Assembly (NCBI GenBank): GCA_025455065.1
Contig: JALONG010000049.1
Coordinates: 1 to 33,676, forward strand
Direction of reading: 5' to 3'
DNA from: Candidatus Kapaibacterium sp.
Lineage (GTDB): Bacteria > Bacteroidota > Ignavibacteria > Kapaibacteriales > UBA4661
Length of the DNA: 33,676 bases
In this document: in pieces, positions 1,524 through 33,676 of the stretch
How positions within the stretch are numbered: the stretch's first letter is position 1
Layout: each line of letters begins with the position of its first letter
The notes under the pieces: generated by a model
Told to the model about the DNA's origin: nothing
The model's database searches: none
Seen by the model: only the letters and a program-made list of their open reading frames with translations
Program-made: the position numbers and the translations under genes

Positions 1524-2119
1524 TATGCAATGAGCAAAAATGCTGATGGATTGTGCCAAATTTGTGAAAAACTTGCGCGTTAGTCAAACATTTTAGGTGA
1601 TGAGAAGTACAAAAACAGAAAGCCTTGTCAAATCTTGTGCTGACAAAAAAGTCATTGTCTGAAGGTGCATAAAATCTTGCTTGTGGGAAATCTTCTTCGC
1701 TAAAGCACGAAAAATTATTGATTATTTCAAAATCTCCTCTTATATTGCGAGTCTGCATAAAATCTCACGCCACAATTACCAAGACCTTTCGCGGCTTGGT
1801 GTTAGGCTCTCGAAACAGCGCAAATGCTTGTCTTTTGCTTGTAAGGGCTGGATTAGAAAACGCATTATTACGAGGAATAAAAGAAATGTACGTGAACAAA
1901 TCTTCTTCGTAGCACAGACATTCCTGTCTGTGCCTCATTTAACGCCGCTAGGCGTGATTACTACCTTGAAGATTATTCGCTGCGCTCATTTTTGACACAG
2001 ACAAGAATGTCTGTGCTACGATGGAGGCTTTGAATACTTGCTGTTCCTTTTATCCCAACACTTGGCAATCAATCAAACACTGTTCGCACAATTTTCACAT
2101 TTGTTAAGGAGTAACGACC
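1524..2119. other. Divergent intergenic region recG/secD
   Basis: About 600 bases with no gene I can support; short open frames here have no recognisable product. The right half holds the composite palindromic element at 1908-2020. The rest should carry promoters for recG (leftward) and secD (rightward), but I see no clean TAnnTTTG box for either. Confidence 0.6.
1908..2020 (+). repeat. Composite palindromic element, family A (copy 1)
   Basis: Two family A hairpins face each other. The left one (1912-1933, loop TTCC) has perfect 9-bp arms. The right one (1996-2015, loop AGAA) has 8-bp arms. The outer ends CGTAGCACAGAC and GTCTGTGCTACG are inverted. Between them lies a segment with TAACGCCG and TATTCGCTGCGCTCATTTTTG. 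The same order of parts, with a similar centre, recurs at 28985-29123, so this is a defined mobile-looking unit of about 113-139 bp and not a random pair of hairpins. Confidence 0.85.
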
Positions 2120-4156
2120 TTGAAACAAGGATTACTACGGAAATGGCTAATTATTACCCTCCCGCTTATTGCGGCTGCGGTATTGCTATTCCCGACTTTC
2201 CGCGCATCGCAGCTTGAAAAACAACGTCAAGAGTTGGTTGCTGCGAAAAATGAAACTGCGCTTGCCGCATTCGACAAAGAAAACGGCGAAACGCTGCGCA
2301 AAAACAAAGAACAAAGCCTCAAGCTCGGTCTTGACTTGCGCGGCGGCATCTATGTAACGCTCGAAGCGGACGTTATCCGTCTTCTGGAAGAATCTGCTAT
2401 GCGCGATGCCATTGACGAGGTGTTTTTGGAAACACTCGAACAAACCCGTCAGCAAGTAGAGTCGGGCGGCGATGACGATGTATTGCCTGTGTTCCTTAAA
2501 AATTTTGATGCTATTGCTCGCCCTAAAGGACGCAAACTTTTCTCGTACTATGACACCGGCGACAACCGTGACCTCAGCGAAGATGCTATTGTCAAGCGCC
2601 TTGAACGGAATATCAACGAGGCGATTGACCAAGCTATCGAAGTTGTGCGTCAGCGTATTGACAAATACGGTGTTGCCGAGACGACGATTCAAAAGCAAGG
2701 CACACGCCGCATTGTGATTGAACTTCCGGGTGTAAGCAATGAAGCCGAAGTTCGCTCACTTTTGCAAACCACCGCTCGTTTGGAGTTCAAACTCCTTCGC
2801 AGCAATGCGCAGATTGTTCGCTCGTTTTTTGCGATTGACCAACTGCTCAAAAACAAGGGCGCTCAAGCAACCGCTTCCACAAACGCAACGGCTACGGCTT
2901 CCACAGCGACAACTTCTGCGGCTTCGACAGCAACAGCAAGTGCCGGAGCGGATTCTGCGAAAAAAGATCCCTACGCAGGTCTGAGCGATGAGCAGAAGCG
3001 TGAAAAATTCAAGAAAGATTATCCCTTCACATCGTTGTTCGTAACCTACTTTAACCCGCCGGGCGAAGGACAGCAGCCCGTTCCGGTGATTTACGAAAAG
3101 AACGAATTCCCCGAAGGCGAATACAGTTTCCAAATCCCTGAGGAAACTCTTCAGAAATATGAAGAAATCATGGCTCGTCCCGATGTTCGCCGTATTATCG
3201 GTAACGAATATCAAGTGCTTGTTTCCGCAAAGCCGGAGCCGTTCTTTGAACGTCAGGGCATCAAACTTTATTACATCTACGGTGTTTTGGCAAAGCCGGA
3301 ATTGACAGGCGATGTGATTTCCGACGCGCAAGCAACGTTTGACCCGACAACGAACGCACCAATGGTTACAATGGACATGAACGCTGACGGTGCTGCAAAT
3401 TGGGCGCGTATCACGGGCGCAAACATCAAAAAGCGTATTGCTATTGTGCTTGACGACCGCGTATATTCTGCGCCGACGGTACAAAACAAAATCACGGGCG
3501 GACGCTCACAAATTACGGGCAGTTCTACGATTGACGAAGCACGATTGCTCGAAATCGTTCTGAAAGCCGGCGCACTTAAAGCACCGGTGAAAATCGTTGA
3601 AGAGCGCGTTGTCGGTCCGTCGCTTGGTGAAGACTCCATTCGCAAAGGTATTATCTCCGGTGCGATTGCGGCATTGCTTGTGGTCTTGTTTATGATTTTG
3701 TACTACGCAAACGCAGGAATGTTAGCGGATATTGCCGTTATGGTCAATATCTTGCTTGTTGTGGCGCTTCTGGCTGCATTTGGCGGAACGCTGACCTTGC
3801 CGGGCATCGCGGGTTTGATTCTGACGCTTGGTATGGCGGTGGACACAAACATTCTCGTTTTTGAGCGTATTCGTGAGGAATTAGCTCACGGGCGTTCATT
3901 GCGGGCGGCTGTGGATGAAGGCTTCAAACGCGCGTTTAACGCTATTTTGGACTCGAACATTACCACGATGATTACCGGTGCAATTTTGTATTACTTGGGT
4001 ACCGGTCCGATTCGCGGTTTTGCCGTTACATTGATGATTGGTATTATCATCACGCTTTTCACGGGTATTACGCTCTCGAAAGTGTTCTTTGAACTCATTC
4101 TTTCGCGTGGCGCGACAAGCATTAATCTTGGTCAGCCCGCTTCGGACAAAGCGTAA
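2120..4156 (+). CDS. secD: Protein translocase subunit SecD
   Basis: SecD is the membrane subunit that, with SecF, uses the proton motive force to help complete protein export through SecYEG. The 678-residue protein has an N-terminal membrane helix (about 8-27), the LDLRGG motif (71-76), a large periplasmic P1 region, and a C-terminal block of membrane helices including GMAVDTNILVFERIREEL. The start is TTG, supported by AAGGAG eight bases upstream and by the position of the first membrane helix. It is long for SecD, partly because of an Ala/Thr/Ser-rich low-complexity stretch at about 248-282, just after the LEFKLL strand of P1. secF follows after 39 bases, so the two are very likely co-transcribed. 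Confidence 0.96.
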   Translation: MKQGLLRKWLIITLPLIAAAVLLFPTFRASQLEKQRQELVAAKNETALAAFDKENGETLRKNKEQSLKLGLDLRGGIYVTLEADVIRLLEESAMRDAIDEVFLETLEQTRQQVESGGDDDVLPVFLKNFDAIARPKGRKLFSYYDTGDNRDLSEDAIVKRLERNINEAIDQAIEVVRQRIDKYGVAETTIQKQGTRRIVIELPGVSNEAEVRSLLQTTARLEFKLLRSNAQIVRSFFAIDQLLKNKGAQATASTNATATASTATTSAASTATASAGADSAKKDPYAGLSDEQKREKFKKDYPFTSLFVTYFNPPGEGQQPVPVIYEKNEFPEGEYSFQIPEETLQKYEEIMARPDVRRIIGNEYQVLVSAKPEPFFERQGIKLYYIYGVLAKPELTGDVISDAQATFDPTTNAPMVTMDMNADGAANWARITGANIKKRIAIVLDDRVYSAPTVQNKITGGRSQITGSSTIDEARLLEIVLKAGALKAPVKIVEERVVGPSLGEDSIRKGIISGAIAALLVVLFMILYYANAGMLADIAVMVNILLVVALLAAFGGTLTLPGIAGLILTLGMAVDTNILVFERIREELAHGRSLRAAVDEGFKRAFNAILDSNITTMITGAILYYLGTGPIRGFAVTLMIGIIITLFTGITLSKVFFELILSRGATSINLGQPASDKA

Positions 4157-4195
4157 TTTCTTACCACCAATTATCTTCTTTGGAGAATTTTTACC

Positions 4196-5158
4196 ATGCA
4201 ATTCTTTCACGATACAAAAATTGACTTTTTGAGCAAACGCCGTTTGTTCTTCTTTGCGTCGGTGGTTATCAATATCGTCGGTATTCTTGTCGTTGCTATC
4301 AAAGGCTTGGATTACGGTATTGACTTTGTTGGCGGTACGGAAGTCGGCGTAAAATTTAGCGGCTCACAGGCTGTGCAAACCGAGCAGGTTCGTAAAGCAA
4401 TGGACGAAGCTAAATTTGCCGGGTCAGAGATTAAATCCTACGGAAAGACAGATGAATTCTTGATTCGCTTACCTAACGTTGCGGGAAAAGATTATTCTTC
4501 CACCGCAATTATGGAGAATCTCAAAAAAGCGTTTCCGAATCAAACTATCACCTTGCTAAAAGTAGATAAAATCGGTCCTAAAGTAGGCGCGGAACTTCGC
4601 TCGAAAGCCTTCTTGGCTCTTGGTTTGTCGTTTGTAATGATTATGATTTACATCGCTTTCCGCTTTGAGTTCCTCTACGGCTTGGGTGCTATTGTTGCGC
4701 TGTTGCACGATGCAATTTTAGCGTTTGTGGTTTCGGTGATGGTTCACGACTTAGGTATCATCAATTTGGAAGTAAACCAAAGTATGCTTGCGGCAATGCT
4801 GACGGTTATCGGTTTTTCGGTACACGATACCGTGATTATCTTCGACCGTATCCGCGAAAACCGCGAAAAGCACAAAAATATGCCGTTTATTGATATGGTG
4901 AACCTCAGTATCAACGAGACACTGAGCCGCACTATCAATACTGTAATGACGGCGGTTTTGGTGCTTATCGTTATCACGGTTTTTGGCGGTGAAGTGCTTC
5001 AAGGCTTTGCATTTGTGATGCTCATTGGCTTTATCACTGGTGCGTACTCTTCTATCTACATTGCCAGCGCGTTTGTTGCGTGGTATTTGGAGACATTCAA
5101 AAAATACGACCTGCACGTGGAAAGCTACGGCAGTATTTCGGCAAAAGCGAAAGCGTAA
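4196..5158 (+). CDS. secF: Protein translocase subunit SecF
   Basis: SecF pairs with SecD in the inner membrane to drive late steps of Sec export. The 320-residue sequence begins with a membrane helix (about 14-34), followed by the DYGIDFVGGTEV segment typical of SecF, a short periplasmic domain, and five more membrane helices. These include the ATVIGFSVHDTVIIFDRIRE-type region (here LTVIGFSVHDTVIIFDRIRE). Length and domain order match normal SecF. The ATG at 4196 is preceded by GGAG and lies 39 bases after secD. Two hairpins downstream (5222-5246 and 5254-5271) probably end the secDF transcript. Confidence 0.96.
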   Translation: MQFFHDTKIDFLSKRRLFFFASVVINIVGILVVAIKGLDYGIDFVGGTEVGVKFSGSQAVQTEQVRKAMDEAKFAGSEIKSYGKTDEFLIRLPNVAGKDYSSTAIMENLKKAFPNQTITLLKVDKIGPKVGAELRSKAFLALGLSFVMIMIYIAFRFEFLYGLGAIVALLHDAILAFVVSVMVHDLGIINLEVNQSMLAAMLTVIGFSVHDTVIIFDRIRENREKHKNMPFIDMVNLSINETLSRTINTVMTAVLVLIVITVFGGEVLQGFAFVMLIGFITGAYSSIYIASAFVAWYLETFKKYDLHVESYGSISAKAKA

Positions 5159-5221
5159 TAGAAGCCCGAATGTGCTTTTAAGAGACATTCAGAAGTATAA
5201 AATAAACTTGGAAAACACAAT

Positions 5222-5253
5222 AAAGGGGCTTAATTTAAGTCCCTTTGTTGTTT
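5222..5253 (+). terminator. Probable intrinsic terminator after secF
   Basis: A hairpin AAAGGG-g-CTT/AAG-t-CCCTTT (5222-5246) with loop AATTT is followed by GTTGTTT. It sits 63 bases after the secF stop. The T tract is interrupted, so termination may be partial. Confidence 0.6.
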
Positions 5254-5281
5254 CCGGCTTGAATGTGCCGGATATTCTTTT
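5254..5281 (+). terminator. Second hairpin after secF
   Basis: CCGGC/GCCGG arms (5254-5258 and 5267-5271) with an 8-nt loop are followed by ATATTCTTTT. It may act as a back-up terminator for secDF or as a leader element for the STAS gene that starts 34 bases later. Confidence 0.4.
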
Positions 5282-5305
5282 CACTTTTCATTCTCTCCGA
5301 TTTTT

Positions 5306-5659
5306 ATGGCTGAAGCATTGGAATTCCACGCGCATCCGACAAATCACGCCGTTGCGACGGTGATTTTAAGCGGACACATTACAGGCGGACCGCAAGCTGT
5401 CGAGTTTTCGACGCATTTGAACAAATTTGTGGCAAGCAAAGTGAAACACGTCATTGTGGATTTGTCGGCGGTGTCGCTCATTAACAGTTCCGGGCTGGGA
5501 ATGTTGGTCGGCGGACTAACGACAATGCGGAAATCGGGCGGAACAATGCGCTTTGCGGCAGTCCCTGCGAATGTGATGAACCTGCTTGAAATTACGCGCC
5601 TCAATACCGTGTTTGATATCTACGAGTCTGTTGATGCAGCGTTGAAAAAAATCGGGTAA
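5306..5659 (+). CDS. STAS-domain anti-sigma factor antagonist
   Basis: A 117-residue single-domain STAS protein of the SpoIIAA/RsbV type. Such proteins bind an anti-sigma or serine kinase partner and are inactivated by phosphorylation of a conserved serine. The sequence shows the STAS core strand HVIVDLSAVSLINSSGLGML; the Ser61-Ser62 pair in NSSGLG corresponds to the phosphorylated site of SpoIIAA (Ser58, the second serine). Length is normal for the family. No kinase or phosphatase partner is encoded nearby, so the regulated target cannot be read from context. The gene lies between secF, behind two hairpins, and dcd, and is probably transcribed on its own or with dcd. Confidence 0.9.
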   Translation: MAEALEFHAHPTNHAVATVILSGHITGGPQAVEFSTHLNKFVASKVKHVIVDLSAVSLINSSGLGMLVGGLTTMRKSGGTMRFAAVPANVMNLLEITRLNTVFDIYESVDAALKKIG

Positions 5660-5807
5660 AGAAGAAGAAAAGTATGAAATTGGAAGTATGGGATATGAAA
5701 GCCTCATGAAAACTGATTTTACAGGCTTTTTTTACTTCCTTGGAAAATCTTCAAACCCGCACCAAACCTATAACCCAGAACCTATCGCCTGTAACCTTCT
5801 TTTAACA

Positions 5808-6341
5808 ATGATTTTATCCGATGCAGAAATTCTCCGCGCCATTGAGACCGGAGATATAGTCATAACGCCGTTTAACCGTGATGCGCTTGGCTCAAACAGC
5901 TACGATGTTCGTTTGGGCAAGACCTTGGCTTGTTATAGTGATGCTGTTTTAGATGCGAAGCAACATAATTTGATTCGCACCTTTGAAATTCCCGAAGAGG
6001 GGTTTGTCTTGCAGCCCCATGAGTTCTATCTCGGCGTTACCGAAGAATATACCGAAACGCACAAACACGTGCCGTTTTTGGAAGGAAAATCCAGCGTCGG
6101 GCGCTTGGGGATTGACATTCATGCGACGGCAGGAAAAGGCGATGTGGGGTTTTGTAATACGTGGACGTTGGAAATTTCGGTGAAACAGCCCGTGCGCGTG
6201 TATGCCGGAATGCCGATTGGACAACTCATTTATTTCGAGGTGTTGGGGGAAATTATCAACCCTTACAACAAGAAAAAAAGCGCGAAATACAACGGTCAAA
6301 CCAGCCTTCCGGTTGAATCCATGATGTGGAAGAATTTTTGA
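5808..6341 (+). CDS. dcd: dCTP deaminase
   Basis: Dcd deaminates dCTP to dUTP, feeding thymidylate synthesis. The protein has 177 residues from the ATG at 5808 (MILSDAEILRAI is the usual Dcd N-terminus). The frame is open further upstream to 5688, but that extension has no family match. Visible motifs are SNSYDVRLG near the N-terminus, EGKSSVGRLG (substrate-binding Ser/Arg segment) and GDVGFCNTWTLEI, whose Glu is the expected catalytic residue. This follows the archaeal/Bacteroidota-type Dcd pattern more than the E. coli one. The gene is followed after 10 bases by the DUF1684 lipoprotein gene. Confidence 0.93.
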   Translation: MILSDAEILRAIETGDIVITPFNRDALGSNSYDVRLGKTLACYSDAVLDAKQHNLIRTFEIPEEGFVLQPHEFYLGVTEEYTETHKHVPFLEGKSSVGRLGIDIHATAGKGDVGFCNTWTLEISVKQPVRVYAGMPIGQLIYFEVLGEIINPYNKKKSAKYNGQTSLPVESMMWKNF

Positions 6342-6351
6342 GTGCCGCACA

Positions 6352-7032
6352 ATGACAGCGTTTTTCCTTGATAGTTTCTTTCGCCGTAGCGCAGACATTC
6401 TTGTCTGTGCAGTATGTGTTTGCAGCATCTTCGTTGTTGCAGCGTGTGAACGCCAAAACAAGCCGCAAAGCAGCATCAATCCTTATTTCAAACCCGATAC
6501 TATCCTTTTGGAGCGCAAAGAAAAAGATACGTATTGGCGCGAAGGCGAAGCCTCTCCGCTCAAAGCCGAAGATAAAGCCTTGTTTCAAGGATTGACATAT
6601 TTTGCTCCTAATGAGCGCTATTGCGTGGAGGCACGGTTTGAAGCGCTTTTGCAGCAAGATACGGTCCGCTTGCAAACAAGCGATAACGAACTTCGCACGA
6701 TGCTCCGTGCGGGATATTTTTATTTTCGTATCGGCGAGGATTCATGCCGCTTAACGGCGTTTCGTTATACGGGTGTGGAAGGCAAGATGCAGCATGGCTA
6801 TTTTGTGCCGTTCAAAGATGCAACCAACGGCACGGACACGTACCGTCCGGGGCGGTATATTGACGTTGCCGTTCCTTTGGGCAATACACCGTATATTTTG
6901 GATTTCAACCGCGCATTTAATCCGTATTGCAATTACAACGAGGATTATTCCTGTCCGCTTGTTCCGCAGGAAAATATCCTTGCCGTGAGGATTGAAGCGG
7001 GTGAGAAGGTCTTTTTTCATCCACGCAAATAA
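6352..7032 (+). CDS. DUF1684-family lipoprotein
   Basis: A 226-residue predicted lipoprotein. After a hydrophobic signal segment it has a lipobox-like VVAAC (Cys32), then a domain I recognise as DUF1684. Its pattern includes RKEKDTYWREG, GLTYFAPNERY, FVPFKDATNGTDTYRPGRY and LDFNRAFNPYCNYNEDYSCP. The biochemical role of DUF1684 is not established. The signal peptide region overlaps a palindromic element (6389-6410) that encodes SADILVCAV, so part of the hydrophobic segment comes from the repeat. An alternative is that translation starts elsewhere and the signal is fortuitous. The gene follows dcd after 10 bases. Confidence 0.82.
   Translation: MTAFFLDSFFRRSADILVCAVCVCSIFVVAACERQNKPQSSINPYFKPDTILLERKEKDTYWREGEASPLKAEDKALFQGLTYFAPNERYCVEARFEALLQQDTVRLQTSDNELRTMLRAGYFYFRIGEDSCRLTAFRYTGVEGKMQHGYFVPFKDATNGTDTYRPGRYIDVAVPLGNTPYILDFNRAFNPYCNYNEDYSCPLVPQENILAVRIEAGEKVFFHPRK
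6386..6410 (+). repeat. Palindromic element, family A, in a signal peptide
   Basis: GCGCAGACA/TGTCTGTGC with loop TTCT (6389-6410), preceded by CGTA. It is the family A hairpin with one arm mismatch, in the opposite orientation to the recG copy. It lies within codons 12-20 of the lipoprotein gene and is read in a different frame from the recG copy. Confidence 0.85.
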
Positions 7033-10628: not shown

Positions 10629-11735
10629 ATGAAATCGCTTAGAATAGCTACAAGCCTTTGTGTATGCGCCCTAGCAGTTTTTTCTGCTTCATGCAAAAAA
10701 AATGCTGATACCGCTAGACCCGAATATCGCGCTCTCACCGAAACCGTTTACGCTTCCGGCACGCTCACACCGCGTGGGGAATACAAAGTCTATGCCCTTG
10801 CAGACGGCATCATTACTCGTCGTTTGGTGGATGAAGGTGCAGAAGTGAAAACAGGTGATATTTTGTTTCGTATTGACAACGATGAACAGGCAGCTCGCAT
10901 GAATGCTGCACGCGACGTGTTTCGCACCGCACAATCCAACTACACCGCGACTTCTCCCGCACTCGCGGAGGCTGAATCCGGTTTGCGTTCAGCACAGTCA
11001 AAGTTCGCAACGGATTCCATGCAATTTTCCCGCGTCAGCGACCTGTTTACCGCCAAAGCTATGACGCAAGCCGATTTCGACCGTGCGAAACTTGCCTTTC
11101 AGGTTTCACAAAACGATTTCGCCGCCGCGAAACAACGTTACGAGCGCACCAAACGCCAGCTTTTTGTGGAAATGCAAAATGCTGAAAGCCAATACAAAGT
11201 CAGTGCGAAGCAAGAATCTAACGCTTTTGTCAAGACATTGACCGATGGTATGATTTATGAACTCTACAAACAACAAGGCGAGGCTGTGCGCCGCAATGAC
11301 CCTCTGGCACTTATCGGGAGCGGCAATGAAGTCTATATCAAACTGAGTGTGGATGAACTGGACATCAGGAAAATTCAAGTCGGGCAGGAAGTCTTAGTGA
11401 AAATTGACCTGTATCCCGATAGCGTCTTCAAAGCAAAAATCGAAAAAATTTACCCCATGCTCACCAAACAAGACCAGTCGTTTCGCGTGGATGCGCGTTT
11501 CGTGGAAGCACTACCGGCGAGGTTTGTAGGCGTTACTGCCGAAGCAAATATCATCATCAGCCGCAAAGAAAAAGCACTCGTTATTCCGAAAGCACTCTTG
11601 CTAAAGGGCGATAGCGTTCTTGTCAAAAATGGTAATTCGGAACAGAAAGTAAAAATTCGCAAAGGTGCGGAAACATTTGATTTTGTCGAGGTTCTGGGCG
11701 GATTGGATGGAACAGCAGAACTCGTGAAGAGGTGA
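10629..11735 (+). CDS. Periplasmic adaptor (HlyD/MacA-type) of an ABC exporter
   Basis: A 368-residue membrane-fusion protein that would link an inner-membrane ABC transporter to an outer-membrane channel. It has a signal peptide with lipobox FSASC (Cys22), so it is a predicted lipoprotein. A lipoyl half-domain (GIITRRLVDEGAEVKTGDIL) is followed by a coiled-coil hairpin of about 100 residues, the second lipoyl half (DGMIYELYKQQGEAV) and the beta-barrel domain. The permease and ATPase genes follow on the same strand. Its stop codon lies only three bases before the first 15-bp repeat array, so the normal gap to the permease has been filled by a repeat-bounded gene. Confidence 0.9.
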   Translation: MKSLRIATSLCVCALAVFSASCKKNADTARPEYRALTETVYASGTLTPRGEYKVYALADGIITRRLVDEGAEVKTGDILFRIDNDEQAARMNAARDVFRTAQSNYTATSPALAEAESGLRSAQSKFATDSMQFSRVSDLFTAKAMTQADFDRAKLAFQVSQNDFAAAKQRYERTKRQLFVEMQNAESQYKVSAKQESNAFVKTLTDGMIYELYKQQGEAVRRNDPLALIGSGNEVYIKLSVDELDIRKIQVGQEVLVKIDLYPDSVFKAKIEKIYPMLTKQDQSFRVDARFVEALPARFVGVTAEANIIISRKEKALVIPKALLLKGDSVLVKNGNSEQKVKIRKGAETFDFVEVLGGLDGTAELVKR

Positions 11736-11738
11736 GTT

Positions 11739-11830
11739 GGTTACTTGGTTCTTGGTTGCTTGGTGCTTGGTTACTTGGTTCTTGGTTACTTGGTTCTTGG
11801 TTACTTGGTTCTTGGTTACTTGGTTCTTGG
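11739..11830 (+). repeat. 15-bp tandem array, six units (left arm)
   Basis: Six consecutive 15-bp units of GGTTACTTGGTTCTT run from 11739 to 11828, the second unit degenerate (GGTTGCTTGGTGCTT), ending in GG. The array starts three bases after the adaptor stop. Its reverse complement matches the array at 12231-12320 at 13 of 15 positions per unit, so the two can pair as a stem of about 90 bases enclosing the gene between them. Confidence 0.95.
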
Positions 11831-11867
11831 TAAAATTATTGAATATAACATTACAATTATTGCGGTT

Positions 11868-12236
11868 ATGCAGCATAAATTGGATGATTTGAAAGTGTAC
11901 AAACTTGCGATGGATATTGGGCGTGAATGTTACGATATGGCAACTACATTTCGTGAGTTTGACCGGCGCACTATTGGTGGGCAGCTTGTCCGTGCTGCGG
12001 ATTCTGTTGCCGCTAATATTAGCGAAGGCTACGGGCGATTTTCTCGCAAAGAACAAAAGCAATTTTGTTATTACGCTCGCGGCTCATTGTACGAAACAAG
12101 AACGTGGATAACCAAAGCACAAGAACGGAACTGTATCACAAGCACTCAGGCAGAACACTTGCACACCTTGATTCAGCAATGCGGCAAGATGCTTAATGCC
12201 TACACTCGCTATATCAGCAATGAACAATCCAAGTAA
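11868..12236 (+). CDS. Four-helix-bundle protein (23S rRNA IVP / S23 family)
   Basis: A 122-residue protein of the family first found inside intervening sequences of 23S rRNA genes. It shows the family pattern LKVYKLAMDIGRECYDM, GGQLVRAADSVAANISEGYGR and FCYYARGSLYETRTWI. The fold is a four-helix bundle; its molecular role is unsettled, and it is distantly related in shape to Avd proteins of diversity-generating retroelements. The ATG at 11868 matches the family start; the frame is open through the left array (repeating YLVLG), which I exclude. The stop codon lies inside the first unit of the right array. It is inserted between adaptor and permease genes and has no evident link to export. Confidence 0.88.
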   Translation: MQHKLDDLKVYKLAMDIGRECYDMATTFREFDRRTIGGQLVRAADSVAANISEGYGRFSRKEQKQFCYYARGSLYETRTWITKAQERNCITSTQAEHLHTLIQQCGKMLNAYTRYISNEQSK

Positions 12237-12320
12237 CCAAGCCCCAAGTAACCAAGCCCCAAGTAACCAAGCCCCAAGTAACCAAGCCCCAAGTAACCAA
12301 GCCCCAAGTAACCAAGCGAC
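12231..12320 (+). repeat. 15-bp tandem array, six units (right arm, inverted)
   Basis: Six 15-bp units AAGTAACCAAGCCCC, the last degenerate (ends GCGAC). It is the inverted counterpart of the array at 11739-11828, has the same number of units, and ends eight bases before the permease ATG. Confidence 0.95.
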
Positions 12321-12328
12321 CAACCACC

Positions 12329-13582
12329 ATGAACCTCCACATTTCCATAGCAAAAACACACCTTCTTGCCAAAAAGAAGCAAACTATTACCGCAATGCTC
12401 GGAGTAACTTTCGGTATCGGGATGTTTATCTTGATGATTGGCGTAATTACGGGTGTGAACGAGTATTTAACCGATTCGATGCTCGAATCCACAGCACACG
12501 TGCGGATGTACAATGATTTGGCTTCGTCGAATCGCACGTCAATCATTGAAGAAACGCTGCTTTCAACCTTAGAAGTGGCTTCAACGCTGCATCAAAAGCC
12601 GAAAAATATCAAACTCAGTATTCGCAATGGAATGCAGATTGTCAGCGATTTGAAAAATCATCCCGAAGTCGCCGGAGTGTCGCCACAACTGAGTTCGCAG
12701 GTGTTTTACAACTACGGTCCCGTGCAGTTAAACGGGAATATCGCCGGAGTGAATATTGTGGATGAAGATAATCTTTTCGACGTTGCCGGAAAAATCAAAG
12801 CAGGGCGCATGGAAAGCCTTCTCACGACGGGAAACGGTCTTATTATGGGGGCAGGGTTGGCAAAAAAACTGAATGCACAAGTAGGCGACCGCATTACGAT
12901 TACAACGCCTTTTGGTGGCTCTATGACGCTCAAAATCGTGGCAACATTTGCAACGGGCAACGTCCAAATTGACAACGTAAAAAGTTATGCAAGCATCGGC
13001 ACTGTACAGAAAATTCTTCAGCGCGACCCTGGGTATATCACCACTATCAGCGTGAATTTGAAAGATATGAACGATGCAAAGAAAATTGCGCCGGAATTAC
13101 AAGCTAAATACGGCATAAAATCGGAAGATTGGGAAACAGCAAACGCGGTGATTTTGCAAAGTTTTGTCATTCGGAACATTATGACGTATGTCATTGTAAC
13201 GACGCTACTTGTGGTGGCAGGGTTCGGAATTTACAACATTATGAGCATGACCATCAACGACAAAATGAAGGATATTGCCATCATGAAGGCAACAGGTTTT
13301 ACGGCGCGGGATATTGTGATTGTGTTTATGCTGCAAGCCGTAATTGTGGGTTTTTTCGGGGCATCGCTAGGGCTGATGATAGGCGGTTCGCTGGCGTATT
13401 GGGTTTCGACGATTCCCGTAGATTTCGGTGAATTTGCCTCCATGACGCGCTTTCCGGTGAATTTCGACCCAATGCACTATCTTTTCGGCATTATTTTCGG
13501 CGTTGGAGCCACGTGTTTAGCGGGTTTTCTGCCCTCGCGCAAAGCAGGGAAGATAGACCCGGTGGATATTATTCGTGGTTGA
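12329..13582 (+). CDS. ABC transporter permease (MacB/LolC-type, FtsX domain)
   Basis: A 417-residue inner-membrane permease. It has one N-terminal membrane helix (about 20-45), a large periplasmic MacB-PCD domain and three C-terminal helices of the FtsX domain, including the conserved NIMSMTINDKMKDIAIMKATG cytoplasmic stretch (contact with the ATPase). It ends in PSRKAGKIDPVDIIRG, a typical terminus for this family. With the adaptor (10629) and ATPase (14223) it forms a three-part exporter or lipoprotein-release system; the substrate is unknown. The ATG comes directly after the repeat array and has no clear Shine-Dalgarno sequence. Confidence 0.92.
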   Translation: MNLHISIAKTHLLAKKKQTITAMLGVTFGIGMFILMIGVITGVNEYLTDSMLESTAHVRMYNDLASSNRTSIIEETLLSTLEVASTLHQKPKNIKLSIRNGMQIVSDLKNHPEVAGVSPQLSSQVFYNYGPVQLNGNIAGVNIVDEDNLFDVAGKIKAGRMESLLTTGNGLIMGAGLAKKLNAQVGDRITITTPFGGSMTLKIVATFATGNVQIDNVKSYASIGTVQKILQRDPGYITTISVNLKDMNDAKKIAPELQAKYGIKSEDWETANAVILQSFVIRNIMTYVIVTTLLVVAGFGIYNIMSMTINDKMKDIAIMKATGFTARDIVIVFMLQAVIVGFFGASLGLMIGGSLAYWVSTIPVDFGEFASMTRFPVNFDPMHYLFGIIFGVGATCLAGFLPSRKAGKIDPVDIIRG

Positions 13583-13619
13583 GTTGAATTGTTTACACTC
13601 GTCAATTTGATAACATCTT

Positions 13620-13650
13620 TCATGCCGACGCAGGTCGGCATCCATATCGC
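13620..13650 (+). repeat. 31-bp inverted repeat, left copy (family B)
   Basis: A 31-bp sequence containing its own hairpin (ATGCCGAC/GTCGGCAT, loop GCAG, 13622-13641) and ending TCCATATCGC. It is a perfect reverse complement of 14151-14181, so the pair brackets the GIY-YIG gene. A partial second copy (GACGCAGGTC) lies further inside, near 13702-13712. Confidence 0.93.
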
Positions 13651-13767
13651 ACAAATACACGTTGTGGTCACTTGTCAAGCCTGATAGCACCTGTTGTTAT
13701 GATGACGCAGGTCGAGATTCTTCACCCAATTCAATAGAACAATCAATGTGAATACGCTGAATGCCCG

Positions 13768-14076
13768 ATGAACACTTATTTCGTCTATATTCTTGCAAAC
13801 AGCAAATATGGTACTCTTTACATTGGTGCGACAAATAATCTGCCTAGAAGAATGTATGAACACTCGCACGGTCTGATAGAGGGTTTTACCCAAAAGTATA
13901 GTGTGCATCAGCTTGTCTGGTATGAATCTACGGTTAATGCTTTCTCAATGGCTACACGTGAGCGACAAATGAAAGAATGGAAACGCGAATGGAAAATTAA
14001 CCTTATCAATACGCATAACCCGGAATGGCAAAATTTATATCAACATGGAGAGATACTACCATTGCCGATACCATAA
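13768..14076 (+). CDS. GIY-YIG endonuclease-like protein
   Basis: A 102-residue single-domain GIY-YIG protein. It has the first strand YFVYILAN (4-11), the second motif GTLYIGATNNLPRRMYEH (15-32), which carries the expected catalytic Tyr and Arg, and the ERQMKEWKREWKINLI helix holding the conserved Glu. The family includes small stand-alone nucleases of unknown biological role and homing-type enzymes. It is enclosed by a perfect 31-bp inverted repeat and lies between the permease and ATPase genes of one exporter, with 185 and 146 base flanks. This suggests that it arrived as part of a mobile unit. Confidence 0.9.
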   Translation: MNTYFVYILANSKYGTLYIGATNNLPRRMYEHSHGLIEGFTQKYSVHQLVWYESTVNAFSMATRERQMKEWKREWKINLINTHNPEWQNLYQHGEILPLPIP

Positions 14077-14150
14077 TCGCCTGTGATTTTTCCTCAATGA
14101 ATGCTGACCTACGCCCCGAATGATAAGCGGAGAATGGAACAAATTATTAC

Positions 14151-14181
14151 GCGATATGGATGCCGACCTGCGTCGGCATGA
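14151..14181 (-). repeat. 31-bp inverted repeat, right copy (family B)
   Basis: Perfect reverse complement of 13620-13650, with the same internal hairpin (14160-14179). It ends 41 bases before the ATPase ATG. Confidence 0.93.
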
Positions 14182-14222
14182 CAGATAGATAATCAACTAC
14201 AACATCCGAGAAATATACAACC

Positions 14223-28984: not shown

Positions 28985-29123
28985 GTAGCACAGACTGAGC
29001 GCGGATCTCAACTTGTCTGTGTTCCTAACGCCGTCAGGTATAATTACCGAAAGCAGCGCAAACACTGGCTTTAAGACTATTCGCTTCGCTCATTTTTGAC
29101 ACAGACAAGAATGTCTGTGCTAC
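28985..29123 (+). repeat. Composite palindromic element, family A (copy 2)
   Basis: Same layout as 1908-2020. The left hairpin GCACAGAC/GTCTGTG (28988-28995 and 29015-29021) has an enlarged loop that itself contains TGAG/CTCA. The centre has TAACGCCGTCAGG and TATTCGCTTCGCTCATTTTTG. The right hairpin (29100-29119, loop AGAA) ends in GTGCTAC. It fills the gap between the dehydrogenase and the cytochrome-like gene. Confidence 0.85.
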
Positions 29124-29157
29124 AGTGAAGATTGTTTTCTTGTGTTCCTAAACTTGT

Positions 29158-32523: not shown

Positions 32524-32565
32524 TTGTTTACTTCAATCTCCAAAGGTTATTTTCAAAGGTTGTTT

Positions 32566-33099
32566 ATGGAAACATCTCAACAAGAAATTTTGACTGATGA
32601 ATACCGTGTAATCCGCACCGGTGCTTCGGTTGCGGAGTATCTTGCGCTTGAAGAAGAGCATCAAACAAAATACGAATATCACAACGGAGATATAGTCGCA
32701 ATGCCCGGTGGAACAAGTGAACACTCAAGTTGTAATGCCGCTTTGACGGCATTGCTCTTTTTTCAGGCTCGAAAGCAAGGAAATAGGCTCTTCACCAGCG
32801 ATATGCGCGTCAATATACCGACCTACAATCGCTATGTGTATCCTGACCTGACAATAGTTCGTGGCGCACCTGAGTTTGCCGACGCAAAACGCACACAATT
32901 ACTGAATCCGACCGTGATTATTGAGGTGTTGTCAGGCAGTACGGAAGATTATGACCGCTCGGACAAATTCGAGTATTACCGCAGTATTCCGTCGTTGCAG
33001 GAAGTCGCGTTTTTCGCTCAAGACCGCGCCCACGCTGAACTTTTTCGCAAAAATGCAAACGGGCGTTGGGAAATAATTGAAGCGGAGGTTTACCCGTAA
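32566..33099 (+). CDS. Uma2-family (DUF820) putative endonuclease, copy 1
   Basis: A 177-residue Uma2-family protein of the PD-(D/E)XK nuclease fold. It has EYLALEEEHQTKYEYHNGDIVAMPGG, then a PTYNRYVYPDLTIV strand holding the Asp, and the NPTVIIEVLSGSTEDYDRSDKFEYYRSIPSLQE block with the Glu and Lys expected in the active site. The family is widespread, often in many copies, with unclear function. The ATG at 32566 is used. The next gene is a tandem paralogue. Confidence 0.88.
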   Translation: METSQQEILTDEYRVIRTGASVAEYLALEEEHQTKYEYHNGDIVAMPGGTSEHSSCNAALTALLFFQARKQGNRLFTSDMRVNIPTYNRYVYPDLTIVRGAPEFADAKRTQLLNPTVIIEVLSGSTEDYDRSDKFEYYRSIPSLQEVAFFAQDRAHAELFRKNANGRWEIIEAEVYP

Positions 33100-33163
33100 T
33101 AACTGTCCATCACATTTCTTTCAGCAAATCCTCGTCATTTATTCCAATTTGTACCACGTTCTT

Positions 33164-33676
33164 ATGGAAACGCACGAACAAGATGTTTTGACGCAAGAAT
33201 ACCGCGTAATCCGCACCGGTGCTACGGTGGAGGAGTATTTTGCATTTGAAGATAAGAGTGAATTTCGCCATGAATTTCATAATGGAGATATAGTTGCTAT
33301 GCCCGGAAATACTGGCTACCACGAAGAACTCAATGCCGAACTTATTGCTGCTTTGCTTGGGCAGCTACGCAAACGAGCGAAAGTGTATGGAAGTAATTTG
33401 AAAACAATGATTCCCACGTACAATCGGTATGTCTATCCTGATATTACGGTGGTTTCGGGCGAACCCGAATTTGCCGACGCGAAACGTACACAATTACTGA
33501 ATCCGACAGTCATTATTGAGATTCTTTCGGGCGGTACGGAAGATTATGACCGCTCGGATAAATTCGAGTATTACCGTAGTATTCCGTCGTTGCAGGAAGT
33601 CGCGTTTTTCGCTCAAGACCGCGCCCACGCTGAACTTTTTCGCAAAAATGCAAACGGGCGTTGGGAAATAATTGAA
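33164..33676 (+). CDS. Uma2-family (DUF820) putative endonuclease, copy 2 (3' end beyond window)
   Basis: Starts METHEQDVLTQEYRVIRTGA and stays open to the window end (171 codons). The N-terminal tail and the C-terminal third match copy 1 closely, while residues about 25-100 differ more (EFRHEFHNGDIVAMPGNTGYHEELNAELIAALLG). From about residue 145 the DNA of the two copies is almost identical. Active-site pattern PTYNRYVYPDITVV and NPTVIIEILSGGTEDYDRSDK is kept. It is 64 bases after copy 1. Confidence 0.88.
   Translation, partial: METHEQDVLTQEYRVIRTGATVEEYFAFEDKSEFRHEFHNGDIVAMPGNTGYHEELNAELIAALLGQLRKRAKVYGSNLKTMIPTYNRYVYPDITVVSGEPEFADAKRTQLLNPTVIIEILSGGTEDYDRSDKFEYYRSIPSLQEVAFFAQDRAHAELFRKNANGRWEIIE

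Follow-up and report, generated by a model that had tools for sequence, protein, structure and literature searches.

The S23/IVP open reading frame is known mainly from intervening sequences (IVSs) of 23S rRNA in Leptospira, Coxiella, Salmonella and Brucella. In the Coxiella IVS the ORF is preceded by tandem heptamers (GACAGAT) whose number varies between strains, and the part of that report drawn on here doubts that the protein is made; it also cites the proposal of Ralph and McClelland (1993) that the IVS goes back to a mobile element whose ORF has a role in mobility (PMC4990558). A comparable arrangement is described for RAYT/REP systems, for which the portions of the literature used here report a gene flanked by two inverted copies of a repeat, further copies of which are scattered through the genome either alone or paired as hairpin doublets (PMC2817692; PMC3116915). 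Heptamer arrays, with units GGGAATC and GGGGA(C/T)T, have been described separately in Xanthomonas and Nostoc; two Xanthomonas genomes contain 70 and 75 convergent pairs, and the sections concerned state that such arrays were not generally found with mobile elements (PMC4692102); the terms S23, IVP and four helix bundle do not occur in the text of that paper available to us. A miniature element (MITE) with a minisatellite is known in Porphyromonas gingivalis, according to the part of PMC4596501 consulted.

In this study, we examine an IVP gene in a 33,676-nucleotide stretch of DNA from Candidatus Kapaibacterium sp., hereafter the window, together with IVP loci and short-unit arrays elsewhere. 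We conclude that positions 11737-12317 are probably one copy of a family of small transposable elements that follow a RAYT/REP-like logic. The features of the locus are collected in Table 1.

Table 1. Array, gene and neighbour positions at the IVP locus, in window coordinates.
Feature	Position	Strand	Basis and details
Left array	11737..11831	+	Tandem Repeats Finder: unit TTGGTTACTTGGTTC, 15 bp, 6.3 copies, 95% matches
IVP/S23 four-helix-bundle gene, 122 aa, ATG start	11868..12236	+	PF05635, TIGR02436
Right array	12229..12317	-	Tandem Repeats Finder: unit CCAAGTAACCAAGCC, 5.9 copies, 100% matches; inverted vs left array
Upstream host gene, HlyD/RND-type periplasmic adaptor	10629..11735	+	Profile matches
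Downstream host gene, FtsX/MacB-like ABC permease	12329..13582	+	Profile matches

The original prediction had described two mirrored 15-bp arrays around an IVP gene, with arms agreeing at 13 of 15 positions per unit. Tandem Repeats Finder recovered both arrays with coordinates within a few bases of those predicted, the agreement at 13 of 15 positions held, and a repeat search gave arms (11737-11823 and 12229-12315) of 87 nt, 89% complementary and 405 nt apart. The unit TTGGTTACTTGGTTC of the left array is in turn built as a doublet of 7+8 bp around TTGG. The start of the left array lies 2 nt beyond the adaptor stop codon, with the G-rich strand of the array directed towards the IVP gene; the IVP stop codon lies within the first right-hand unit, and the right array overlaps the last 8 nt of the gene and has its outer end 11 nt 5' of the permease start codon. 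An in-frame TTG start at 11745 would extend the IVP frame across the left array. Arms of this kind were measured by an inverted score, the best inverted match between the 400 nt upstream and the 400 nt downstream of an IVP gene, and the control comprised the same measurement at 266 positions displaced by 1.5-2 kb within the same loci (95th percentile 15, 99th percentile 21.45, maximum 32). The IVP locus of the window scores 61, against that maximum of 32.

A transcript folding into a stem of about 90 bp, with the gene in its loop, had also been anticipated. The predicted fold of 11730-12328 agrees with this, at -236.3 kcal/mol against a mean of -161.5 for 100 shuffles (z -11.2), and in it both arrays pair to form the outer stem. 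An Rfam search of the window gave no match, hence no rRNA at the locus, and the predicted architecture of a 23S IVS between two protein-coding genes stands. A plain rRNA intervening sequence was rejected as a description of the element, which is located between the adaptor and permease genes and not in 23S rRNA.

Homologues of these two neighbours in five members of the order (37-45% identity) are at most 60 nt apart, a tight junction. The empty adaptor-permease junction that had been sought in a close relative was not found: the closer relatives G001, G005 and G007 have other sequence there, by eye a chemotaxis-receptor gene, and in G009 roughly 850 nt of different sequence stand at this point. 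A right-arm array without an IVP gene precedes the same permease in G005. At the window copy we saw no target duplication and found no close empty site.

Other repeats occur in the window. Directly downstream of the permease, at 13615-14186, a GIY-YIG gene (13768-14076; PF01541, E 1.2e-12) is flanked by two 36-nt inverted repeats that are 97% complementary, a second gene-in-inverted-repeats unit in the same operon; a similar palindrome pair without a gene is present in G001 (L153, about 330-420). The palindromic, REP-like repeat CACAGACAAGAATGTCTGTG occurs at five places (61-92, 1908-1939, 1991-2022, 6380-6410 and 29095-29126), and 32524-33676 holds a Uma2 family gene (PF05685) followed by a related copy, 267 nt at 89% identity, that is cut by the window end.

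The window IVP is the single PF05635 match of its genome in a profile search (E 1.4e-30, 106.1 bits; curated cut-off 33.8) and also matches TIGR02436 (E 3.1e-30, 104.6 bits; curated cut-off 24). Its AlphaFold monomer model (pLDDT 94.6) is a confident bundle of four helices. The best Foldseek matches of the model are the S23-family structures 2gsc and 2rld, with five chains of 2gsc (XCC0516) ranked first to fifth (TM 0.82-0.87 on the query); Avd comes next, alone (4dwl) and in the complex with the reverse transcriptase of a diversity-generating retroelement (DGR; 8ub7, 8ube), at E 0.009-0.03 and probability 1.00. The NCBIfam profile DivGenRetAVD (bAvd) scores 24.2 bits, below its cut-off of 80. 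XCC0516 is described as a ring of five subunits (Lin et al. 2006, as cited in the portion of PMC4990558 used). Among 12 pairs of IVP genes, dN/dS was 0.04-0.25 in 11 and the twelfth was saturated, which indicates that IVP is selected as a protein, under purifying selection.

The gene between inverted short-unit arrays is the general arrangement of IVP loci, with exceptions. PF05635 matches were found in 45 of the 99 genomes around that of the window, up to 17 in some. Many of the 30 best-scoring PF05635 loci of the order, a non-random sample by this choice, have inverted arrays beside the gene, with a unit that differs from locus to locus. A second set of 80 IVP loci was taken from named genomes of many phyla (genome-contig loci, the best 80 of at least 590), and a third came from the 45 predicted viral contigs that carry an IVP gene. 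Loci with a flank shorter than 120 nt were excluded (2 of 30, 4 of 80 and 1 of 45, respectively). The expectation that IVP genes of relatives would also have flanking inverted arrays was borne out: the inverted score exceeded the 95th control percentile at 24 of 28 testable order loci and the 99th at 14. The corresponding numbers were 52 and 25 of 76 for genome-contig loci and 34 and 16 of 44 for viral-contig loci, near-duplicate contigs counted in. Three plasmid IVP loci read by eye have inverted arms, and 6 of 12 IVP loci in a gammaproteobacterial sample, scored with slightly different flank limits, were above 15. Detectable arms are absent at some IVP loci, 24 of the 76 genome-contig loci not exceeding 15. 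Direct-orientation scores passed the 99th percentile at 1 of 28 order loci and 5 of 76 genome-contig loci, most clearly at L005.

Some loci depart from this layout in other ways. L005 (G094) has two tandem IVP genes (the second at 1501-1818) in the order array-gene-array-gene-array, its three long arrays having one orientation. At L215 (G045, 1865-6280) and L233 (G012), a long open frame that matches Eco57I/MmeI methylases encloses an IVP gene together with several array pairs; the IVP is in another frame of the same strand and the outer frame is open throughout. The view of IVP as a phage gene was rejected when one IVP query gave no match among 50,697 phage records, although 45 predicted viral contigs have such a gene.

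Arm anatomy was examined at 83 non-redundant loci with an inverted score of at least 19. The best arm period was 7 at 61 of them, 14 at eight, 8 at six and 9 at two. On the inward-reading strand of the arms G exceeded C at 74 of the 83 loci, and GGG occurred 235 times against seven for CCC; the G-rich strand is therefore directed inwards on both sides, regardless of the unit. Where one genome has several IVP copies, the units differ between copies and the two arms of each copy agree.

We compared arm units with the proteins at 89 loci, leaving out those with an inverted score below 19 and L111, a duplicate of L007, and masking 18 pairs with shared flanks. Mean arm similarity was 0.58 for protein pairs of 60-80% identity (35 pairs) and 0.19-0.24 for pairs under 50%. 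The rank correlation between protein identity and arm similarity was 0.265, against a maximum of 0.089 in 500 permutations. Shared base composition within a genome may inflate this covariation, and an antisense control, which reduces the inflation in part, left 0.236 for same-sense minus antisense similarity (maximum of 1000 permutations 0.121). Among the 43 genome-contig loci alone the covariation was not significant (rho 0.08; permutation maximum 0.18), so the signal is carried by fairly close relatives within the order.

Filled and empty versions of one site were found on cyanobacterial plasmids. The IVP element is present on plasmids of Trichormus variabilis ATCC 29413, T. variabilis 0441 and Scytonema NIES-4073, and six cyanobacterial plasmid records without it are 97.0-97.4% identical in two pieces covering 90% of the query. 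All four of the records that were fetched from these six read AAAAA-GTAAT-TAACAAATAA at the empty site, and at the filled site GTAAT stands on both sides of an insert of 423 bp that comprises the IVP gene and both arrays. This 5-bp duplication contains the TAA stop codon of the upstream plasmid gene. IVP is the only annotated ORF of the insert; no transposase, nuclease or reverse transcriptase motif was found in the element, and the IVP has no transposase match in Pfam/NCBIfam. That arrays were in place before the gene is contradicted here, the arrays being absent from the empty site. The IVP gene and both arrays move as a unit, as the plasmid copy shows, and we regard this as practically certain.

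Later changes are visible at the same site. In the Scytonema NIES-4073 copy the left array is shorter by 14 bp, two units, and a plasmid of Nostoc C052 (L330) holds the left array and, by eye, what is apparently the first part of the IVP gene. Such a remnant, decaying towards a single array, illustrates a possible origin of solo arrays. No insertion other than the one at this plasmid site could be traced to single-base precision, the flanks being too divergent at four more plasmid sites, and exact-pattern searches for empty sites in viral contigs gave no matches.

Repeated copies were found in two genomes. G065 has two IVP genes of 92% protein identity at non-homologous sites, with a 494-bp alignment that covers the IVP gene and about 50-60 bp on each side. 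G026 has a non-coding interior of 337-361 bp in three complete array-bounded copies (contigs C3, C7 and C8) and in two partial pieces besides; the sites are unrelated and homology stops at the arrays. The interior was absent from the 11 other genomes searched. We rejected the idea that these interiors are broken IVP copies, since neither the G026 IVP nor P0001 found a match by tblastn at an E threshold of 10. On an Aulosira plasmid (L336), a copy without the gene retains the two ends typical of the T. variabilis element; there is a relative with an empty site, and only 2 bp are shared exactly on both sides. Among the usual signs of a transposable element, an empty site with a duplication was thus seen for the plasmid relative only and copies at non-homologous sites in G065 and G026, the window's genome having its one IVP gene; no known movement enzyme was found. 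The original prediction had taken equal unit numbers on the two sides as a sign that the arrays evolve together or are copied as a unit. Copying as a unit is upheld by the empty plasmid site and by the G065 and G026 copies, but equality is no rule, the arms of L024 having 49.7 and 28.9 copies.

Arrays also occur without an IVP gene. The exact array core CTTGGTTACTTGG, a 13-mer, was found 63 times in the window's genome (G000) and 11 times each in G005 and G006, and was absent from 15 other genomes, which include the four members of the genus without PF05635 (G001, G003, G004 and G007) and G002, whose IVP genes carry other units. The places in the window's genome group into the window and 31 further sites, and the 20 sites fetched are single-orientation arrays with an IVP gene in none. 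The original prediction had named two findings that together would refute it, other IVP genes in the genome without flanking arrays and arrays alone at many sites; the former did not appear, there being no other IVP gene in the genome, but the latter did. In G005 and G006, TTGG arrays are present, yet the resident IVP belongs to another subfamily with other arrays, and the TTGG arrays there are therefore without a matching IVP. At L192 (G000), L195 (G006) and L196 (G005), TTGG-unit arrays occupy the beginning and parts of the interior of an open frame next to a gene that by eye is sigma-factor-like, and add a peptide rich in Gln, Asn, Pro and Ser.

Other units are similarly restricted. Three copies of GTTCANN were found, among 30 genomes, only in G026 (160 matches), whose single IVP bears that unit; three copies of GCGAATN were found among the same number only in G077 (94), G045 (21) and G012 (1), and not in exact form in G028, although IVP arms there include GCGAATGG. 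In G077, convergent array pairs separated by 12 to 82 nt and lacking an IVP gene occur at four loci (L220-L223). As a control, each unit pattern was read backwards; it matched a few other genomes, since heptamers of other kinds are present in them. The published Xanthomonas heptamer, as three copies of GGGAATC, occurred in a single genome (G485) among 369 taken from the class that includes Thiohalocapsa, and the one IVP match of that genome, partial and with an interrupted frame, lies between GGGAATC-type arms at a site read by eye as the accB-accC junction. Its backwards control, three copies of CTAAGGG, also matched one genome, G273, where an IVP lies between AGGGC(C/T)(A/G) arms. IVP is not rare in this sample, being present in 12 of the 28 genomes scanned out of the 369; the 28 include G485 and G273, and the remainder were chosen mostly for size. 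By analogy with the solo REPs of RAYT elements, we read solo arrays as derivatives of the element and not as evidence that refutes the prediction.

Gene ends, taken from a simple ORF caller, often lie close to the arrays. The outer array end was within -10 to 15 nt of a stop codon for 47 of the 84 IVP arms facing one and of a start codon for 27 of 78. For solo arrays the same distance was found on the 5' side in 15 of 22 cases for stop codons and 6 of 23 for start codons, and on the 3' side in 6 of 34 and 1 of 10, respectively. Two IVP genes lie at junctions within CRISPR operons, cmr2-cmr3 in Picosynechococcus 7003 (L339) and cas6-cas4 in Anabaena 90 (L340).

The reading that we favour for the window locus is a mobile one. 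Elements of the proposed family would be about 0.4-0.6 kb long, with two convergent short tandem-repeat arrays, usually of 7 bp, as ends and IVP as the sole gene. Copies would insert, both arrays included, at tight gene junctions, in many cases at a stop codon; copies lacking the gene, and arrays standing alone, would derive from the full element. The ends vary between elements, agree between arms, track the protein in close relatives and occur dispersed, both singly and in hairpin pairs, which points to a protein that reads its own unit; the IVP four-helix bundle would then recognise its array unit as nucleic acid and supply a mobilisation function in cis and in trans. We think it fairly likely, if a shade less so than the family assignment itself, that IVP acts on the arrays. 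From these patterns we infer that IVP binds the arrays and is needed for movement, of a form that may be DNA or RNA. An IVP ring may bind several units of one G-rich strand and so bring the two arms together, and cutting or copying may be performed by a partner activity encoded outside the element. Agreement between the arms may arise by conversion between them in the hairpin; whole-unit changes were observed in the Scytonema copy. On this view, the 23S rRNA IVS would be an element of this sort that has settled within rRNA.

A 5-bp target duplication is typical of many DDE transposases, and the duplication at the plasmid site would fit a unit moved by an unlinked host or insertion-sequence transposase, with IVP as cargo or expression tuner and the arrays as mere terminal repeats. 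The spread of copies without the gene and the lack of a known transposase in the element also agree with such passive carriage. End sequences that are wholly different between loci, even within one genome, would be hard for one unlinked transposase to use, however, and the tracking of the IVP subfamily by the unit within the order, together with purifying selection on IVP, also speaks against an idle gene; we consider this explanation unlikely. Movement through RNA, in which the stem transcript is cut out as in 23S rRNA and spread by a borrowed reverse transcriptase, with IVP in an Avd-like role, is decidedly unlikely. It can draw on the strong predicted stem (z -11.2), on the match of the IVP model fold to Avd and the DGR complex, on the weak NCBIfam Avd score and on the cleavage of the Coxiella 23S rRNA IVS by RNase III reported in the part of PMC4990558 used, but the element has no reverse transcriptase, the Avd score is far under the curated cut-off, and a strand-symmetric inverted element needs no RNA.

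The closeness of outer array ends to gene ends (a stop codon at 47 of 84 IVP arms and 15 of 22 solo arrays) would also be expected of a hairpin kept for its neighbours, as a terminator, mRNA stabiliser or translation insulator at operon junctions, with IVP as an autoregulator. Yet the neighbour genes are unrelated, near-identical plasmids manage without the element, and one sibling (G005) retains an array without the gene, so that we hold such a regulatory role to be very improbable. Gene-free arrays at many sites, such as the 31 further core sites in the window's genome, and the right-arm array that stands alone before the same permease in G005, might suggest that slippage-born heptamer arrays are independent of IVP genes, which lie or land between them by chance. 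This is hardly credible: at the plasmid site the arrays are missing when it is empty and arrive with the gene, and mirror orientation with agreement between arms recurs across phyla. An array-bounded mobile element encoding IVP remains our preferred account.

A broader proposal is possible but more speculative: IVP may be a new class of mobilisation protein which, with heptamer arrays, would form a bacteria-wide transposable family whose ends are fast-diversifying arrays read by a protein ring, and the Xanthomonas and Nostoc heptamer arrays and the 23S IVS would be its derivatives. The element, in which no transposition enzyme is recognisable, looks like an overlooked kind of jumping element. 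It offers a single explanation for the role of S23/IVP, the origin of 23S IVSs and the existence of genomes strewn with 7-bp G-rich arrays, and it poses a new problem, how two arms keep one unit although units vary widely among elements. Filled and empty sites on closely related plasmids from cyanobacteria that are culturable and non-pathogenic make the question of whether IVP is a mobility protein a simple experiment.

IVSs, REP/RAYT systems and heptamer arrays are each known. The link between IVP and arrays and the occurrence of such an element outside rRNA appear to be new, as neither was met with in a search of the open-access literature (preprints and most subscription journals lie outside it). 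The window element shares with the 23S rRNA IVS its protein family and the ORF in the loop of an inverted-repeat stem. It differs from the IVS in being placed between protein genes, in having long tandem arrays as arms and dispersed derivatives, and in that an empty site with a target duplication is seen on plasmids. The IVP genes compared here are under purifying selection by dN/dS, in contrast to that of Coxiella, of which the cited part of PMC4990558 doubts the production. As in RAYT/REP systems, the window IVP gene is bracketed by inverted copies of a repeat found at many other places in the genome, but IVP is not a Y1 tyrosine transposase (it matches PF05635 and, weakly, bAvd), and the repeat is a tandem array of locus-specific units, unlike the REP palindrome. 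The Xanthomonas and Nostoc heptamers and cyanobacterial STRRs are, as here, short 7-bp G-rich intergenic arrays; their link to IVP is drawn in this study and not in the available text of PMC4692102. The Avd protein of diversity-generating retroelements is predicted by comparison with the modelled structure to have the same fold as IVP, which differs in missing the NCBIfam Avd cut-off and in having no linked reverse transcriptase. Gene-less copies bounded by inverted ends, in G026 and on the Aulosira plasmid, resemble MITEs, but here the ends are themselves tandem arrays, with a unit that varies from element to element.
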